A stretch of 64,000 nucleotides of DNA, taken from an uncultured Alphaproteobacteria bacterium (GTDB taxonomy: Bacteria; Pseudomonadota; Alphaproteobacteria; Bin95). Below the pieces are notes generated by a model. That model was given only the letters and a program-made list of their open reading frames with translations. It ran no database searches and had not been told where the DNA came from. Below, piece after piece: positions 52,963-61,333 of this stretch. The translations under genes were made by a program, and so were the position numbers. Positions within the stretch are counted from its first letter, which is position 1; every line of letters begins with the position of its first letter. The DNA lies in assembly GCA_937891825.1 (NCBI GenBank), contig CALAHN010000089.1, forward strand, positions 1 through 64,000, in the 5' to 3' direction.

Positions 52963-54698
52963 CCCGGCCTGAGAACGATCCGGCGACGTTCGAGATCGTC
53001 AAGAACAGCCTCTACAAGATCGCGGAAGAAATGCGGGTGGTGCTCGCCAAGACCGCCTATTCGCCGATCCTGAAGTCGGCGGGCGATTATTCCTGCGGCG
53101 TCTTCGACCGCACCGGCGACATGGTCGCCCAGGGGCCGGATCTGCCGATCCATCTGGGCTCGATGCCGGACGCAGTGCGCGCCGTCGTCAAGGCCTTCGG
53201 CGACGACGTGCATCCGGGCGATGTGTTCATTCACAACGATCCGTATTTCGGCGGCAGCCACCTGCCGGACGTGAATGTCGTCCGTCCGGCGTTCTATGAG
53301 GACATGCTGCTTGGCTATGCGTGCCTGCGCGCGCATTGGCCCGATGTCGGCTCGGCGACGCCTGGAAGCTACGGTGCCGTCACGGAAATCTATGGCGAGG
53401 GGCTGCGCCTGCCGCCAGTCAGGCTCTATGTCGGCGGCGTGCTGAACAAGGGACTTGAAGATGTCATCCTCGCCAACGTCCGGACCCCCGACGAGCGGAA
53501 GGGCGATCTCGGCTCCCAGCTTGCCGCGACGCTTCGGGCGACCGAGCGCTTGCATGCGCTGGCGAAGCGCTACGGGCCGGACGGGCTGCTGCAGTACATG
53601 GACGACGTCATGGCCTATTCCGACCGGTTGATGCGCGCCGCGCTCCGCGACCTGCCGGACGGGGAAGGCTATTTCGAGGATTTCTGCGACGGCGACGGCA
53701 TTCCCGATGCGCCCGACGGCTCGGACGCGCCGTTCTGGATCCGGATGCGGATCACGAAGACGGGCGAACGGATCGTCGTGGACTTTGCCGGCACCGACGG
53801 CCAGGTCGCAGGGCCGATGAATGCGGCGCTGTCGGTGTCCGCCTCCGGCGTGTTCTGTGCCTTGAAGACCGCGATCGATCCGAACAGCTTGATTCCGCCG
53901 AATTCCGGGTGCTGGCGCGCGATTGAGGTCAAGGCGCCCAAGGGGGCGGTCGTCAACGCGGAGTTCCCGGCGCCGGTCGTCTATTCGAACCACGAGATTT
54001 CCCACCGGACGGCAGATATGGCGATGGGCGCGCTCGCCGCATTCATGCCGGATCAGGTCATGGCGTGCAGCCAGGGAACATCGGCCGTGCTGACCCTCGG
54101 CGGCCTCGATCCGCGCAAGGGCACGCGCTACGTCTCCTATGAAACGGTCAAGGGCGGGTTTGGCGCCCGGCCGAACAAGGACGGCATCAACGTCATCGCC
54201 AGCGGCATCTCGAACACAATGAACACCCCAGTTGAAGTGTTGGAGATGGCCTTCCCGGTCCGGGTCGAGCGCTATGAGATACAGCCCGATTCGGGCGGGC
54301 CGGGCCGGTATCGCGGCGGCAATGGCGCGCGCCGGACCTGGCGGATGCTGGACGGCGCCGACGCCACCGGCGCGCTTTGCATGGAGCGGATGACCTCGCC
54401 GCCGTTCGGGCTGCTGGGGGGCAGTGCTGGCATCCCGGCGACCGTCACGCTGACGACGCCCGATGGCCTGACGCGCGGCTTGCCCAGCAAGGGCGCGTTC
54501 GCGGCGCCCGGCGGATCGGTGATCGATATGGTGACGCCCGGCTCCGGCGGCTTCGGCCCGGTCGCGGGCCGCGATCCGGCGGCGATCGGCCGCGATCTGC
54601 TGGACGGCTATATCACCGCGGGCGCGGCGGCCAGCGCCTATGGAATCAAGGATCCAGCGGCCCTGAAGGCCGCGGCTAAGGAGGAAGACCGCCGATGA
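52959..54698 (+). CDS. hyuB: Hydantoinase/oxoprolinase subunit B
   Basis: A 579-residue HyuB-family subunit partnering HyuA. DPATFEIVKNSLYKIAEEMRVVL, AYSPILKSAGDYSCGVFD, GDVFIHNDPYFGGSHLPDV and the C-terminal SGGPGRYRGGNG are diagnostic. The subunit is cytoplasmic. Its substrate is unknown: N-methylhydantoin, 5-oxoproline or related. Start ATG 52959 forms ATGA with the hyuA stop and has AAGGAG upstream. Overlaps the esterase gene by 4 bases (ATGA). Confidence 0.93.
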   Translation: MTRPENDPATFEIVKNSLYKIAEEMRVVLAKTAYSPILKSAGDYSCGVFDRTGDMVAQGPDLPIHLGSMPDAVRAVVKAFGDDVHPGDVFIHNDPYFGGSHLPDVNVVRPAFYEDMLLGYACLRAHWPDVGSATPGSYGAVTEIYGEGLRLPPVRLYVGGVLNKGLEDVILANVRTPDERKGDLGSQLAATLRATERLHALAKRYGPDGLLQYMDDVMAYSDRLMRAALRDLPDGEGYFEDFCDGDGIPDAPDGSDAPFWIRMRITKTGERIVVDFAGTDGQVAGPMNAALSVSASGVFCALKTAIDPNSLIPPNSGCWRAIEVKAPKGAVVNAEFPAPVVYSNHEISHRTADMAMGALAAFMPDQVMACSQGTSAVLTLGGLDPRKGTRYVSYETVKGGFGARPNKDGINVIASGISNTMNTPVEVLEMAFPVRVERYEIQPDSGGPGRYRGGNGARRTWRMLDGADATGALCMERMTSPPFGLLGGSAGIPATVTLTTPDGLTRGLPSKGAFAAPGGSVIDMVTPGSGGFGPVAGRDPAAIGRDLLDGYITAGAAASAYGIKDPAALKAAAKEEDRR

Positions 54699-55630
54699 CG
54701 TTTGACCTGCACCCGGAAATGGACCCGTTGATCAAGGCGCGGGCCGCATTGCCGCCGGGCAAGAACCTGAATGAAGACCGGGCCAACTGGTCGGCCTATG
54801 CTCGGGCGAATTCGGTCCCGCCGCCCGCCGGCATGACCGTCACCGACACGACCGTGCAGGGCCGGGACGGCGACGCAATCCCGGTCCGCATCTATGCGCC
54901 GGCGGGCGCCGGTCCGAAAGCCGGGCTGCTGTATTTTCACGGCGGCGGCTTCGTCAAGGGCGATTGCGACACCAGCGATACCAATGGCTGGGGGCTTGCT
55001 GCTGAAACTGGCGCCGTCGTCGTCAGCGTCGATTATCGCCTGGCGCCGGAGCATCCCTATCCAGCAGCGCTGCACGACTGCATCGACGTCCTGCTGCATG
55101 TCCATGGCGCACCGGAGGTTTATGGCGTCGATCCGAAGCGGCTCGGCGTCGCGGGCGACAGCGCTGGCGGTAATCTGGCCGCGGCCGTGTCGATCTGGGC
55201 GAAGGTGGAAGGCGGGCCGCCGCTCCGCTGCCAGGGCCTGATCTATCCCTGCCTGACCGACCGGCTTGAATTCGAGAGCTACAAGCGCAACGCCGAAGCG
55301 CCGGGGCTCTCCACCGCCAACATGATGGGCTACTGGAAGGCCTATCTGGGCGACGCGATGGCGGGACAATCGACCGATCCCCTGGCGACGCCGCTCTGCG
55401 TCAAGGACCTTTCGGGCCAGCCGCCGACCTATGTGCTGGTCGCGGAATACGACCCGCTTATCGACGATGGCGTCGCCTATGCCGGCAAATTGATGGCGGC
55501 GGGCGTCGAAACTGGATTTTTTCGCGCCGATCGAATGATCCACGGCTTCGTGCGCGCACGTATCAATGGCAAGGAGACCGCGAAGGCGTTCTCCGCCATG
55601 ACGCAGTTCCTGCAAGCGAAGCTTGCCTGA
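54695..55630 (+). CDS. Alpha/beta hydrolase of the hormone-sensitive lipase family
   Basis: A 311-residue esterase. YFHGGGFVKGD (oxyanion hole, about residue 82) and VAGDSAGGNLAAAV (Ser about residue 155) define the HSL/GDSAG subgroup; VAEYDPLIDDG gives the acid and RMIHGFVRAR the His. No signal peptide. It overlaps hyuB and is followed 15 bases later by the SelW-like gene, so it belongs to the hyuAB transcript and may act on an ester-containing substrate of that pathway (inference). Confidence 0.92.
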   Translation: MTFDLHPEMDPLIKARAALPPGKNLNEDRANWSAYARANSVPPPAGMTVTDTTVQGRDGDAIPVRIYAPAGAGPKAGLLYFHGGGFVKGDCDTSDTNGWGLAAETGAVVVSVDYRLAPEHPYPAALHDCIDVLLHVHGAPEVYGVDPKRLGVAGDSAGGNLAAAVSIWAKVEGGPPLRCQGLIYPCLTDRLEFESYKRNAEAPGLSTANMMGYWKAYLGDAMAGQSTDPLATPLCVKDLSGQPPTYVLVAEYDPLIDDGVAYAGKLMAAGVETGFFRADRMIHGFVRARINGKETAKAFSAMTQFLQAKLA

Positions 55631-55645
55631 AGGGAGATGCCGACG

Positions 55646-55870
55646 ATGCGGTTCGAAATCGAATATTGCGGCGTTTGAAACTATGAACCAAGGGCTCGCC
55701 GTGCGCGAGATTTGATCTGGGCCTTGACCCCGTCGGCGGATATCGCGCTGATCCGCAAGGGCGGCGGAGTGTTCGAGATTGCCCGCGACGGGGCCAAGAT
55801 GTTCTCGAAGAAAGTCTCTGGCCGATTTCCGGAAGAGCATGAAATCAAGAGTATGGCGGTAAACGCTTAA
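55646..55870 (+). CDS. SelW-like (Rdx family) selenoprotein with in-frame UGA
   Basis: Thioredoxin-like Rdx/SelT-SelW-SelH protein of 74 residues. Reading ATG 55646 through TGA 55676-55678 gives YCGVUNYEPRA, i.e. the CxxU redox motif (C8, Sec11), then GGGVFEIARDG, FSKKVSGRFPE and a normal TAA at 55868. Sequence after the TGA fits SelW as well as before it (compare mammalian SelW YCGAU and HSKK), so this is neither two ORFs nor a random stop. A hairpin follows the TGA at SECIS-like distance. ATG 55646 is chosen because AGGGAG lies 9 bases upstream; ATG 55637 abuts the AGGGAG. It follows the esterase by 15 bases and overlaps the convergent ATP12 gene stop. Conventional calling would miss or split it. 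Confidence 0.8.
55676..55709 (+). promoter_or_regulatory. Predicted bacterial SECIS: UGA codon plus downstream hairpin
   Basis: After TGA (55676-55678), the mRNA folds as CTCGC (55695-55699), loop CGTGC, GCGAG (55705-55709): a 5-bp perfect stem whose loop starts 21 bases after the TGA and has G and U at loop positions 2 and 3. Known bacterial SECIS elements lie directly after the UGA inside the reading frame, with the apical loop about 16-37 bases away and a G near its start. CCA (55688-55690) and TGG (55718-55720) can add an outer pairing. The stem is short, so I keep confidence moderate. Confidence 0.55.
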
Positions 55871-56559
55871 CGCAAGCTCTCAATAAACGCGCCGATATCG
55901 GCCATATCGGCTTGCCGGCGCGTGAGCAGCTTGCGCGCGTCGGCGTCCTCGCCCCAATGCTCAAGCTGGAACGCGAGGTCGACTTCGGCCGCCTGGGATG
56001 CGGCGAGCGCATCAAGGCGCCCGTCCAGCAGGGCGAGCGCTACCACGGCCGATCCGGCGACCTGCGCGGCTGCGTGGCCGGCGGTCAGGCGATAGGGGTC
56101 GAGCCGATCAAGCTGGGCCTGGATCGCATCCAGCGCTTTCGGCGGCTGCGCGACGGGCATGATCCCATCGACGACCGTCAATGCCGCGCCGTGGCGGTCC
56201 CGCAGCCACGCCAGTAATGGCGACCACGCCGCGTCCTGGACCTGGCGGAGCAGCGCGGGCGAGGCGGCGCGGTAGCAGACGAGGTCCGTCTGTGCGATCC
56301 GGGCAATTTCCTCGATGAAGGTCTCAGGCGTCTGGCTGACCCGCTCGATCGCGGCATAGGCGAAAGCTGTCATCGGCATCGTCGCCATGTCGAGCTTGTC
56401 GCCCTGGCCGTTCCATTCGGCCGCCGAGGCCGCCGCGAGCGCGGCCGTCGGCAGGATCATCTCCATCCGGCCCGGCGTCCGGACCGGCCGCCCGTCGAGG
56501 CAAACGCGATATCCGCTTTCGGCCGCCTCGACCGCAGCTTCCTTGAAGAACCGCTTCAT
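55867..56559 (-). CDS. ATP12-family F1-ATPase assembly chaperone
   Basis: A 230-residue protein of the ATP12 family, which in mitochondria and alphaproteobacteria binds the F1 alpha subunit during ATP synthase assembly. KRFFKEAAVE, VCLDGRPVRTPGR, AAEWNGQGDKLDMATMPMTAFAYAAIERV, TDLVCYRA and AFQLEHWGEDADA-like sequence are typical. No signal peptide. Its stop overlaps by 3 bases that of the convergent SelW gene. It overlaps the HAD gene by 4 bases. Confidence 0.93.
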   Translation of the reverse strand: MKRFFKEAAVEAAESGYRVCLDGRPVRTPGRMEMILPTAALAAASAAEWNGQGDKLDMATMPMTAFAYAAIERVSQTPETFIEEIARIAQTDLVCYRAASPALLRQVQDAAWSPLLAWLRDRHGAALTVVDGIMPVAQPPKALDAIQAQLDRLDPYRLTAGHAAAQVAGSAVVALALLDGRLDALAASQAAEVDLAFQLEHWGEDADARKLLTRRQADMADIGAFIESLR

Positions 56560-57230
56560 CGCGCTTTCCCTATCAGCGTCAGCACGGCGGGCGCCACTTC
56601 GTCATAGCGATGCAAAACAGCCTTGGCGCCATGCAGGGTCAATTCCTCCGGCGGATGATAACCCCAGGCGACGCCGAGGGCGTGCGCCCCGGCAGACCGC
56701 GCCATCGCCATGTCATAGGCGGTGTCGCCCAGGACGACCGTGGTTTCAGGCGAAGCGGCCATTTCGGCGATGGCGTCGTTCAGAATGTGCGGGCTTGGCT
56801 TGCTCGGTCCGTCATCCGCGGTTTTGAGGATCGCGAAATGGCCTTTGAGGCCGTGACGCTCCAACGTCTTCGCCAGACCGCGGCGGCCTTTGCCGGTTGC
56901 GACGCCGAGCCTGATATCCGCCGCGGCCAGGTCCTCTAGCGCGGCGATGACGCCGGGGTAGAGCGGCTCCTCGAAGGCCGCGTCATGGGAGAATTCCAGA
57001 AACGCCGTGCGGAAGCCGTCCACCAGCAGCGCCAGAAGCGCCGGCGACGCGGCGGGCGCCAGCGCCTGGAGGGCGTGCGGCAGGGCGAGGCCGACCGTTC
57101 GCCGGATCGCTTCGTCGTCCGGCCGCGGCAGCCCCTGCGCCCGCCACGATGCATCGACGGCGGCGATGATCCGGCGCTGGCTGTCGACCAGGGTGCCGTC
57201 GCAGTCGAATATGGCGAGCCGCGTGCTCAT
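56556..57230 (-). CDS. HAD-IA phosphatase (Gph-like)
   Basis: A 224-residue HAD hydrolase. FDCDGTLVDS holds the nucleophile and acid Asps, GVATGKGRRGL the Ser/Thr motif, KPSPHIL the Lys, and VVLGDTAYDMAMARSAGAHALGVAWGYH the metal Asp. The helical cap lies between. It resembles phosphoglycolate phosphatase and pyrophosphatase PpaX types; the substrate is uncertain. Overlaps rluC upstream and the ATP12 gene downstream, part of a crcB-rluC-HAD-ATP12 string seen in related bacteria. Confidence 0.9.
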   Translation of the reverse strand: MSTRLAIFDCDGTLVDSQRRIIAAVDASWRAQGLPRPDDEAIRRTVGLALPHALQALAPAASPALLALLVDGFRTAFLEFSHDAAFEEPLYPGVIAALEDLAAADIRLGVATGKGRRGLAKTLERHGLKGHFAILKTADDGPSKPSPHILNDAIAEMAASPETTVVLGDTAYDMAMARSAGAHALGVAWGYHPPEELTLHGAKAVLHRYDEVAPAVLTLIGKAR

Positions 57231-58219
57231 CGACCGGCCGCGAGGAACGGATCGGGCAGAGCGGCCGGGTCGAAGCCGAATGCGTCGAGCGCCGCCTTGA
57301 AAGCGTCGGACGGCTCCGCTTCGACAAAGAGGCGTCCCTTGCCGGAAGGGTGCGGCAGGTCGAGGCTGCGGGCATGCAGCAGCATCGCCTTGGGCAGTTC
57401 GAAACCTGGCAGGTAGGCGTCCTGGCCGCCGTATTTGCCGTCGCCCAGGATGGGATGGCCGATGGCCGCCATGTGCGCCCGTAACTGATGCGTGCGGCCC
57501 GTCAGCGGCAGGAGCGCCACGAGCGCCGCGAAGCGGCCGGCGCGCTCCAGCACCGCATAGTCGGTGATCGCGCGGTCGCCGTCGGGGTTGTCCCAGACCA
57601 TGCGCTCGTGGCCCTTGCCGCCGCCCTTGGCGAGCGGCAGATCGATCGTGCCGGCAAGCGGGTTTGGCAGGCCGGCGACGATGGCCCAGTAGACCTTGCG
57701 GGCCGTTCGGTCCCGGAAGGCTTTCGCCAAGGCCGCCGCGCTCGCCGCTGTCTTGCCAAGCGCCAAAACGCCGGACGTATCCCGGTCCAGCCGGTGAACC
57801 AGCCGGGGCTTTTCGCTGTCCCCGGCCATCGCCGCCAGCAGACCGTCGACATGGCGCGTCGTGCCGCTGCCGCCCTGGCTCGCGAGGCCTTCGGGCTTGT
57901 TCAGCACCAGGGCATAGTCGTCCTCGAAGATGATCGAACGCCGGATCAGCGCCGCATCGGCCTCCGAGATCGCCGGTTTCGGCCGCGGTTTCGGCGCGCT
58001 CTCCGGGTTGGGAGCGCCCAGGGGCGGGACGCGCACGCTCTGGCCGGCTTCAAGCCGGTCGGCGGGCTTCGCGCGCTTGCCGTCGATGCGCACCTGGCCG
58101 GAGCGGGTCAGTTTCTGCAGCCGGGATTGCGGCAGGGCGGGGTAATGCCGCTTGAACCAGCGGTCGAGCCGGACCCCAGCTTCATCCTCGTTGACTTGAA
58201 CCGTCGTAACGCCTGTCAT
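57227..58219 (-). CDS. rluC: RluC-family 23S rRNA pseudouridine synthase
   Basis: Isomerises specific uridines of 23S rRNA. The 330-residue protein has an N-terminal S4 RNA-binding domain (LDRWFKRHYPALPQSRLQKLTRSGQVRIDG), a linker rich in Pro/Lys, and the catalytic domain with VLNKPEGLASQGG and HRLDRDTSGVLAL (catalytic Asp, about residue 142), then LTGRTHQLRAHMAAIGHPILGD. Start ATG 58219; the open frame continues further upstream inside crcB without homology. Overlaps crcB and the HAD gene by 4 bases each. Confidence 0.92.
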   Translation of the reverse strand: MTGVTTVQVNEDEAGVRLDRWFKRHYPALPQSRLQKLTRSGQVRIDGKRAKPADRLEAGQSVRVPPLGAPNPESAPKPRPKPAISEADAALIRRSIIFEDDYALVLNKPEGLASQGGSGTTRHVDGLLAAMAGDSEKPRLVHRLDRDTSGVLALGKTAASAAALAKAFRDRTARKVYWAIVAGLPNPLAGTIDLPLAKGGGKGHERMVWDNPDGDRAITDYAVLERAGRFAALVALLPLTGRTHQLRAHMAAIGHPILGDGKYGGQDAYLPGFELPKAMLLHARSLDLPHPSGKGRLFVEAEPSDAFKAALDAFGFDPAALPDPFLAAGR

Positions 58220-58605
58220 GCAAACCCCCGGGCCACGCGGAGGCCAATCAAGAAACCCGCGAACGCGATGACGACCGACGCCATGACATAACCGAAGGCG
58301 GCCAAAAGGTCGCCCCGCTGCCAGAGCGCGATCGCATCCAGTGAAAATGTCGAAAAGGTCGTGAAGCCGCCAAGCACGCCGACGCCGAGCAACAGCCGCG
58401 CATTCTCCGCCTGGCGCCCGTCGCCCAGGAGCCCGTGCGCCATGGCGCCGACCAGGAGGCCCATGGCGAGCGATCCCGCGACATTGCAGAGCAACGTGCC
58501 CCAGGGGAAGCCAAGCCCCAGCAAGCGGCTGGCCGCCAGCCCGACGCCATAGCGGAGCCCGGCCCCGAGCCCGCCGCCAGCCATCACCAGGAGAACGCCG
58601 GTCAT
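58216..58605 (-). CDS. crcB: Fluoride ion channel (CrcB/Fluc)
   Basis: A 129-residue four-helix membrane protein that exports fluoride as a dimer. MAGGGLGAGLRYGVGL, the conserved GTLLCNVAGS (Asn in helix 2), and LGGFTTFSTFSLD (Phe/Thr ion path, about residues 82-95) are diagnostic. Start ATG 58605 overlaps the rarA stop; an upstream start (58647) would lie inside rarA. No fluoride riboswitch is visible, as the gene sits within an operon. Confidence 0.93.
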   Translation of the reverse strand: MTGVLLVMAGGGLGAGLRYGVGLAASRLLGLGFPWGTLLCNVAGSLAMGLLVGAMAHGLLGDGRQAENARLLLGVGVLGGFTTFSTFSLDAIALWQRGDLLAAFGYVMASVVIAFAGFLIGLRVARGFA

Positions 58606-59918
58606 GCGCCTGAACCGCCCGCGCGCTCGGAGCGGAGCTTCGCCCAATAGGCCAGGCGCTTCTGGGCCTCGCGCTCGAAGCCGCGTTCGACGGGGCGATA
58701 GAACTGTTCGCGCGCCATGCCGTCGGGGAAATAGTTCTGACCGGAGAAGCCGTCCTCAGTGCTATGGTCGTAGGCATAGCCGTCGCTATAGCCAAGGTCT
58801 TTCATGAGCTTCGTCGGCGCGTTCAGGATGTGCTTGGGCGGCATCAGGGAGCCGGTTTGCTTGGCGGCGCGCATCGCTTCGCCGAACGCCTTGTAGACCG
58901 CATTGGATTTCGGCGCGATGGCGAGATAGACCACGGCCTCGGCGATGGCGAGTTCGCCCTCGGGCGATCCGATCCGCTCGAAATGCTCCCAGGCCGCGAG
59001 CGCCAGCGGCAGCGCCTGCGGATCGGCGAGGCCGACGTCTTCAGCGGCGAAGCGCGCGACCCGTCTTGCGATATAGCGGGGGTCTTCGCCGCCGGTCAGC
59101 ATTCGCGCCAGCCAGTAGAGCGCGGCGTCGGGGTCGGAGCCGCGCATCGATTTGTGCAGGGCCGAAATCAGATTGTAGTGCCCTTCCTGGGCCTTGTCGT
59201 AGATCGGCGCGCGCTTTTGCGCGACCACGGAAAGGGCCGCGACATCCAGCACCGGCTCCGCCGGCATGCGGACCAGTTCGTCCGCCAGGTTCAGGAGATA
59301 GCGCCCGTCGCCGTCCGCCATCGCCTTCAGCGCCTGACGGGCGCCGGCATCGAGCGGCAGCGGCCGGCCGGCGTCCGCTTCCGCGCGCGCGATCAGGCGC
59401 TCCAGCGCCGCGTCGTCCAGGCGCGACAGCACCAGCACCTGACAGCGGGAGAGCAGGGCGGCGTTCAACTCGAACGACGGGTTCTCGGTCGTCGCGCCGA
59501 CCAGAACGACGACGCCTTCCTCGACATAGGGCAGGAAGCCGTCCTGCTGCGCCCTGTTGAAGCGATGGATTTCGTCGACGAACAGCAATGTGCCGCGCCC
59601 CATCTCCCGGCGGCGCTTGGCTTCCTCGAAGGCTTTGCGCAAATCCGCGACCCCGGAGAAGACCGCCGACAGGGATACGAACTCCAGATCGACGGCGCCG
59701 GCGAGCAGGCGGGCGATCGTCGTCTTGCCGCAACCGGGCGGGCCCCAGAGGATCAGCGACGCGAGGCGGCGTTCCTGGAGCATGCGGCGGAGCGGCGCGG
59801 CCGGCCCGAGCACGCCATCCTGGCCGACGACCTCGTCCAGGGTCTTCGGGCGAAGCCGGTCCGCGAGCGGCCGCGGCGCGGCTTTCTCCAGTCCGGCTGC
59901 TTCAAATAATGAGGCCAT
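58602..59918 (-). CDS. rarA: Replication-associated recombination protein A (AAA+ ATPase)
   Basis: A 438-residue clamp-loader-like ATPase that acts at stalled replication forks. LADRLRPKTLDEVVGQDGVLG, GPPGCGKTTIARLLA (Walker A, about 59-67), LFVDEIHRFNRAQQDGFLP (Walker B), GATTENPSFELNAALLSRCQVL (sensor 1), and C-terminal YDHSTEDGFSGQNYFPDGM. Full length and complete. It abuts the HtrA gene (1-base junction) and overlaps crcB. Confidence 0.95.
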   Translation of the reverse strand: MASLFEAAGLEKAAPRPLADRLRPKTLDEVVGQDGVLGPAAPLRRMLQERRLASLILWGPPGCGKTTIARLLAGAVDLEFVSLSAVFSGVADLRKAFEEAKRRREMGRGTLLFVDEIHRFNRAQQDGFLPYVEEGVVVLVGATTENPSFELNAALLSRCQVLVLSRLDDAALERLIARAEADAGRPLPLDAGARQALKAMADGDGRYLLNLADELVRMPAEPVLDVAALSVVAQKRAPIYDKAQEGHYNLISALHKSMRGSDPDAALYWLARMLTGGEDPRYIARRVARFAAEDVGLADPQALPLALAAWEHFERIGSPEGELAIAEAVVYLAIAPKSNAVYKAFGEAMRAAKQTGSLMPPKHILNAPTKLMKDLGYSDGYAYDHSTEDGFSGQNYFPDGMAREQFYRPVERGFEREAQKRLAYWAKLRSERAGGSGA

Positions 59919-61333
59919 CAGCCGATTTCGAGCGCCAGGCGCCGGTCGCCGCGAAGGACGACGATCTTCCAGCGCCGCGGCCGCTCATCGATGGCCCTGA
60001 GCGCATCGTCGACCAGGCTGATCTCCCGCCCGTTGATAGTCTCGATCACGTCGCCGGGCCTAAGCCCGAGGCGGCGGGCGTAGCCGTTGGCTTTCAGGCG
60101 GAGGACCACGACCCCGTCGCCCTTGATCTCCATGCCCAGTTCTTCCTTCAGGGCCGGGGAGAGGTTGGCGATTTCCGCCCCGTCGAGCGGCGATTCGGCG
60201 TCGATCTGCGTCGTATTGCGCGGCGGGATCTCCGGCGGCGGCTCCAGGAGCGGGGCGGCCCGATAGATCCGTCCGTTCCGCCAGTACTCGATGCCGACCC
60301 GGTCGCCGATGGTCTTGGTGGAGACGCGGAAGCGCAATTCCAACGGATCGCCGACGGGGCGGCCATCGACCGCCAGCACGACGTCGCCTTGCTTCAGGCC
60401 AGCTTCCGCCAATGCGCCATTCGGATCGACCCCATCCAGCAGGACGCCGCGCGGCGGCGAAAGCCCGAGCGCCGCCCCCAGATCCGCCGTCACTTCCTGG
60501 CCGTGCGCGCCGAGCCAGGGACGAACGACGCGCTGGCCGGTCCGGGCCGCTTCGACCATGCGGGCGACGAGGCTGGCGGGGATGGCGAAGCCAATGCCCA
60601 TGCTGCCGCCGCTATTGGAGTAGATCGCGGTGTTCACGCCGACGACCTCGCCGTTCATGTCGATCAGGGCGCCGCCGGAATTGCCTGGATTGATGGCGGC
60701 GTCGGTCTGAATGAAGACGCCGAAATCCGTGAGCCCCGGACGCGAGCGCGCCAGGGCCGAGACGATGCCGCTGGTGACGGTCTGGCCGACGCCGAAGGGA
60801 TTGCCGATCGCCAGCACCAGATCGCCGACTTCAACGGAATCCGGCGCCGCGATGACGGCTGATGGAATGCGGGCGCCGGCGGTATCGATCCTCAGAACGG
60901 CCAGGTCGGCGCGATCGTCGGACTGGACGATGGTCGCCTCGAACTCGCGCCGATCGTTCAGAACGACGCGGATCTCGTCGGCGCCTTCGATGACGTGATG
61001 GTTGGTGACGACGAGCCCGCTTGGATCGACGATGACGCCGGACCCGAGCGAGCTTTCCGTCCGTTCCCGTTCGCCGCCCAGGGCATCGCCGAAGAAGCGC
61101 CGGAAAAACGGATCGTTGAAGAGCGGCGAGACCCGGCGCTGCCGCACCTTGGTGCGCGTGAAGATGTTGACGATCGCCGGCGCCACGTCGCGCACCAGCG
61201 GCGCGAAGGATAACTGCACCTGTTCCCGGCTTTCGGGCAGGACGCGCGTTTCCGCTTCGACCGGAAGCGGCGCGCCGGTCAGACCGAGCGCTCCGATCAT
61301 CCAGGCGACGGCGCATATGAGGGGACGTTTCAT
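59918..61333 (-). CDS. degP: Do/HtrA-family periplasmic serine protease
   Basis: A 471-residue envelope quality-control protease/chaperone. A signal peptide (residues 1 to about 28, VAWMIGALGLTGAPLPVEA) precedes a trypsin-like domain. The catalytic triad is His in VVTNHHVIEG (about 110), Asp in DRADLAVLRID (about 141) and Ser in PGNSGGALID (about 216). Two PDZ domains follow (about 265-360 and 385-465). Length and double PDZ fit DegP/DegQ (MucD-like). It leads the htrA-rarA-crcB-rluC-HAD-ATP12 string. Confidence 0.94.
   Translation of the reverse strand: MKRPLICAVAWMIGALGLTGAPLPVEAETRVLPESREQVQLSFAPLVRDVAPAIVNIFTRTKVRQRRVSPLFNDPFFRRFFGDALGGERERTESSLGSGVIVDPSGLVVTNHHVIEGADEIRVVLNDRREFEATIVQSDDRADLAVLRIDTAGARIPSAVIAAPDSVEVGDLVLAIGNPFGVGQTVTSGIVSALARSRPGLTDFGVFIQTDAAINPGNSGGALIDMNGEVVGVNTAIYSNSGGSMGIGFAIPASLVARMVEAARTGQRVVRPWLGAHGQEVTADLGAALGLSPPRGVLLDGVDPNGALAEAGLKQGDVVLAVDGRPVGDPLELRFRVSTKTIGDRVGIEYWRNGRIYRAAPLLEPPPEIPPRNTTQIDAESPLDGAEIANLSPALKEELGMEIKGDGVVVLRLKANGYARRLGLRPGDVIETINGREISLVDDALRAIDERPRRWKIVVLRGDRRLALEIG

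Follow-up and report, generated by a model that had tools for sequence, protein, structure and literature searches.

Positions 55646 to 55870 (forward strand) of the window, by which we mean the whole 64,000-nucleotide stretch of DNA analysed, very probably hold a functional gene for a SelW-like selenoprotein (probability about 0.96). We computed the reading frame, its family, a predicted fold, the selenocysteine (Sec) machinery of the genome, the conservation of a UGA codon and, behind it, a covarying hairpin and purifying selection. From these data we infer that selenium is inserted at the UGA. A redox role for the protein is suggested by its family.

A SelW-like frame with an in-frame TGA

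The frame runs from an ATG at 55646 to a TAA at 55868–55870. It contains one in-frame TGA (55676–55678, forward strand) and is otherwise free of stops; in this the first-pass annotation was correct. There are 74 codons before the TAA. The TGA is codon 11 and is read here as the Sec of the motif C8-G-V-U11. The read-through product thus has 74 residues (MRFEIEYCGVUNYEPRARRARDLIWALTPSADIALIRKGGGVFEIARDGAKMFSKKVSGRFPEEHEIKSMAVNA). The start codon is backed by a probable ribosome-binding site, AGGGAG (55631–55636, forward strand), and by the starts of orthologues, MKF or MQI, at the equivalent place. Standard gene calling with translation table 11 would see only a 10-residue peptide here, and genes of this kind tend to be overlooked by standard gene finders. 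Epsilonproteobacterial SelW genes are reported to have been missed altogether by annotation (PMC4607533).

The Pfam Rdx profile (PF10262) matched the read-through product with E = 8.5e-15 (55.2 bits, cut-off 22.6). The match spans both sides of the TGA and nearly the whole length of the protein. Together with the C-G-V-U motif, it bears out the earlier reading that SelW/Rdx features flank the TGA and that the TGA occupies the CxxC/CxxU position. TIGR02174 also matched above its cut-off (4.5e-12, 46.1 bits, cut-off 34.2). In a six-frame PF10262 search of the whole genome, the selW-like gene was the sole Rdx locus (E = 1.3e-11, with one TGA inside); this match is far beyond chance. The best-scoring NCBIfam model was NF041051 (SelTWH_Campy; 1.3e-21), which matched all 36 members scanned. 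The window protein scored 76.6 bits against this model, under the curated equivalog cut-off of 88 bits. Hence, it is SelW-like yet falls outside the SelTWH_Campy equivalog.

A thioredoxin-like Rdx fold was predicted for the product by AlphaFold2 (pLDDT 94, pTM 0.81; Foldseek match to 2fa8, E = 7e-7). In the model, the Cys/Sec motif follows the first strand and precedes the first helix. The best PDB matches were the bacterial SelW-like proteins 2fa8, 2obk, 2oka, 2ojl and 2p0g, with mouse SelW (2npb) at rank 23. PF10262, TIGR02174 and the predicted structure matches agree in aligning the 74-residue product with SelW/Rdx families.

The gene was found in 9 of the 14 genomes of the GTDB family (8 of 13 when the window's own genome is set aside), always with one TGA. 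An order-level search drew the same 14 genomes. Across the class, 48 of 385 genomes surveyed had a match. A TGA was the only stop in 28 of these matches, 18 were free of stops, and two were odd cases, one with a TAA and one with a TGA plus a TAG. Among relatives in named genomes, which overlap in part with the family genomes so that the counts are not additive, 19 of 20 carried the TGA; the single Cys form was a verrucomicrobial record. Eighteen of these 19 TGA-bearing records are titled Alphaproteobacteria or subgroups, and the other (L051) only Proteobacteria. Counting the window, 37 distinct sequences, nearly all alphaproteobacterial and from many genera, keep the TGA at this site. More distant homologues (L053, L086, L087 and L092–L106) have a Cys codon, TGC or TGT, at the Sec position.

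A lone TGA in one assembly could also come from a dead Rdx gene, through mutation of a Cys codon or an error in sequencing, and gene callers would treat it so. We consider such a pseudogene very unlikely, given that the same TGA recurs in all 37 sequences and in many genera. Behind the TGA the frame is open to its normal end across this set, and the blocks NYEPRA(L/R)R, GGVFEI, FSKK and GRFP are largely conserved. In close pairs dN was lower than dS behind the TGA (e.g. 0.031 versus 0.46 and 0.116 versus 0.92). Thus, purifying selection acts on this part of the frame, and the frameshifts and loss of conservation that the first-pass annotation would have taken as marks of a pseudogene were not found in the 37 sequences. 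The complete Sec machinery and the covarying SECIS, both described below, also argue for a functional selenoprotein gene.

Sec machinery and other candidate selenoproteins

The genome holding the window comprises 4.30 Mb in 163 contigs and is 99.97% complete. Profile searches located selB (contig C43, 424 bits) and, adjoining it, selA (512 bits). A genome search recovered tRNA-Sec (selC) with the anticodon TCA (71.5 bits), and selD matched over its cut-off (276 bits) in a Cys form, CGGCGAK. The selC gene lies on another contig; the window itself gave no match in an Rfam scan at gathering cut-offs or in a tRNA scan. With selA, selB, selC and selD all found, the earlier claim that the organism decodes UGA as Sec is supported. 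For its part, the selW-like gene shows that the host lineage very probably decodes Sec. An upstream region resembling pyridine-nucleotide oxidoreductases shares a single open frame with the selD gene (L020, G000:C104); the two are apparently fused.

The TGA form of the gene co-occurs with selB, which was above cut-off in 29 of 32 TGA-form genomes and in 1 of 18 genomes with the no-stop (Cys) form (Fisher p = 1.9e-9). Outside the window's family the corresponding counts were 21 of 23 and 1 of 18. The three TGA-form genomes with no selB detected (G002, G024 and G361) are fragmented or incomplete assemblies.

Alternatively, the UGA might be translated through simple suppression, or decoded as Trp or Cys. 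No point in favour of such decoding was found and it is highly improbable. The TGA stands at the Cys/Sec position, not at a tryptophan one. At other places in the window TGA serves as a normal stop, as at the end of the esterase gene (55628–55630). The presence of tRNA-Sec, selA, selB and selD, the co-occurrence of selB with the TGA form, and the SECIS behind the UGA all favour Sec.

At least three further candidate selenoproteins are encoded by the genome. These are AhpC/TSA genes with one TGA each at the redox position, all on the reverse strand of their contigs. L116 (G000:C49, TGA 1934–1936) is PrxQ-like and has the TGA at the expected peroxidatic Cys (PKADTPG-U-TVEGKGF); CCGTG occurs behind this TGA, as in the selW SECIS loop. 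L117 (G000:C40, TGA 2153–2155) is Prx-like, with the TGA in a UxxC motif (FRGVW-U-PYCNAEL). L115 (G000:C4, TGA 2230–2232) is a Prx-like frame of 413 residues, with the TGA in a UGC motif (WASW-U-GCRADL). AhpD-like (PF02627) genes contained no TGA. The marine selenoproteins already described include Prx and Prx-like families (PMC1088965, PMC2398784).

A Sec-containing formate dehydrogenase was considered as the reason for the machinery and rejected; in a search of the genome, the FDH-alpha over cut-off had no TGA, or any other stop, inside. It is possible, if rather doubtful, that in these alphaproteobacteria the machinery is kept, without a Sec-formate dehydrogenase, by a small Sec-dependent thiol-redox set made up of SelW and several peroxiredoxin-like selenoproteins, and that SelB recognises a CCGUG SECIS loop motif shared by them. 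Three genomes of the same genus (G010, G011 and G012) have selB, with no selW detected. Probably these genomes employ Sec in proteins other than SelW; otherwise, selW has been lost from them or is missing from the assemblies. The genus therefore probably has further selenoproteins.

A candidate SECIS hairpin behind the UGA

A candidate bacterial SECIS hairpin is located at 55695–55709 (forward strand). It has a 5-bp stem, CUCGC/GCGAG, and the loop CGUGC; the distance from the UGA is 16 nt to the stem and 21 nt to the loop. The published model of bacterial SECIS elements specifies a loop of 3–9 nt, a stem of at least 4 bp, a G in the first two loop positions, a UGA–loop spacing of 16–37 nt and an MFE of −7.5 kcal/mol or lower (PMC13188914). 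The hairpin lies within these constraints: it has a 5-nt loop whose second and third bases are G and U, a 5-bp stem, a spacing of 21 nt and an MFE of −8.9 kcal/mol. Because the single-sequence folding energy is unremarkable (z = −0.8), the case for a SECIS rests on covariation and codon choice.

Counted from the T of the TGA, columns 20–24 pair with columns 30–34 around a loop of CGUGC or CGUGU, with one divergent row (L038). Pair 21–33 covaries (CG in 21, GC in 7 and UA in 4), as does pair 23–31 (UA in 33 and GC in 4). These two pairs are the main evidence, and the cell counts lean on related sequences: 94.6% of stem cells were paired and 15 cells showed a change in both partners (mean of shuffled data 3.0, 0/500). 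The stem covariation score was 0.235, compared with 0.046 for shuffled data (0/500) and at most 0.052 when the partner was slid. RNAalifold predicted four of the five stem pairs. Unpaired rows numbered four at pair 22–32 and five at pair 21–33. The Cys homologues surveyed did not form the stem and are mostly from genomes without selB, whereas the window gene has the hairpin and lies in a genome with selB.

Codon usage is also informative. At +7, all 32 of 32 Leu codons are CTC, compared with 45 of 180 Leu codons at other positions of these genes. At +10, AGR accounts for 23 of 27 Arg codons, compared with 42 of 216 at other positions (Fisher p = 2e-11). In the window's lineage the Leu has become Arg (CGC), the partner Arg codon has become CGA, and all five pairs are kept. 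Codon choice is thus bent to fit the hairpin, and the coding cost is visible. The covarying SECIS is independent support for the Sec reading, beyond the points raised in the first-pass annotation. A genome-anchored set of SelW SECIS elements with covariation could help annotation tools.

Ribosomes would reach the UGA at codon 11, where the hairpin just behind it would recruit SelB carrying Sec-tRNA-Sec, so that Sec would be inserted instead of termination. The product would be a small protein of thioredoxin-like (Rdx) fold, with its C-x-x-U redox motif on the loop from first strand to first helix. Most likely it is a thiol/selenol oxidoreductase that handles thiol or peroxide stress alongside the putative Sec-containing peroxiredoxin-like proteins encoded in the genome.

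Known SelW proteins and the gene neighbourhood

SelW-like selenoproteins are an already known kind, and reviews include them among the selenoproteins of prokaryotes (PMC9312934, PMC13188914). The CxxU type was the most abundant selenoprotein family in the Sargasso Sea set of 2005 (48 genes; PMC1088965) and again in the GOS set of 2008 (427 sequences; PMC2398784). Since this type is the commonest in marine metagenomes, the window gene adds one member to a known kind. The Sargasso and GOS proteins share with it the PF10262 family, the CxxU motif, a bacterial SECIS shortly after the UGA and a bacterial source, and we found no mechanistic difference between them. However, they are known from metagenome reads, whereas the window gene sits in a genome with visible Sec machinery and other selenoproteins. 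The SelW of Campylobacter and other Epsilonproteobacteria (NF041051; PMC4607533) has the selenoprotein form as in the window but belongs to a different bacterial class.

The Cys-type Rdx proteins (Atu0228, PDB 2fa8; also 2obk, 2oka, 2ojl and 2p0g) have the same fold, with TM-scores of 0.84–0.92 over 69–75 columns. They differ in the motif, which is CxxC (2fa8, 2ojl) rather than CxxU. Mammalian SELENOW (mouse, 2npb) also shares the fold (TMq 0.70), at 21% identity. Like the window protein, it carries CxxU. The eukaryotic SECIS is in the 3′ UTR, unlike the hairpin behind the UGA in the window gene.

Upstream of selW are genes for hydantoinase A, hydantoinase B and an alpha/beta hydrolase (Pfam Abhydrolase_3; 54695–55630, forward strand), overlapping or with 15-nt spacing. 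The first-pass annotation made selW the last gene of this hyuA-hyuB-esterase transcript. The spacing fits, so co-transcription is plausible; the neighbourhood, however, is not conserved, and the arrangement was not found beside selW in the relatives examined (a genus mate and a sister genus). In the genus mate (L034), different genes were called on either side of selW, and in the sister genus degP-rarA-crcB-rluC homologues lie behind it. A functional link between selW and these genes was rejected on this basis; the neighbourhood gives no clue to selW function. Downstream, a convergent ATP12 chaperone gene (55867–56559, reverse strand) overlaps the 3′ end of selW with its own 3′ end. Behind selW and ATP12, the window carries a degP-rarA-crcB-rluC cluster on the reverse strand (57227–61333). 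In the sister genus (L036, L039, L044 and L046) homologues of this cluster are directly behind selW in the other orientation, so that selW stands at opposite ends of the cluster in the two genera.
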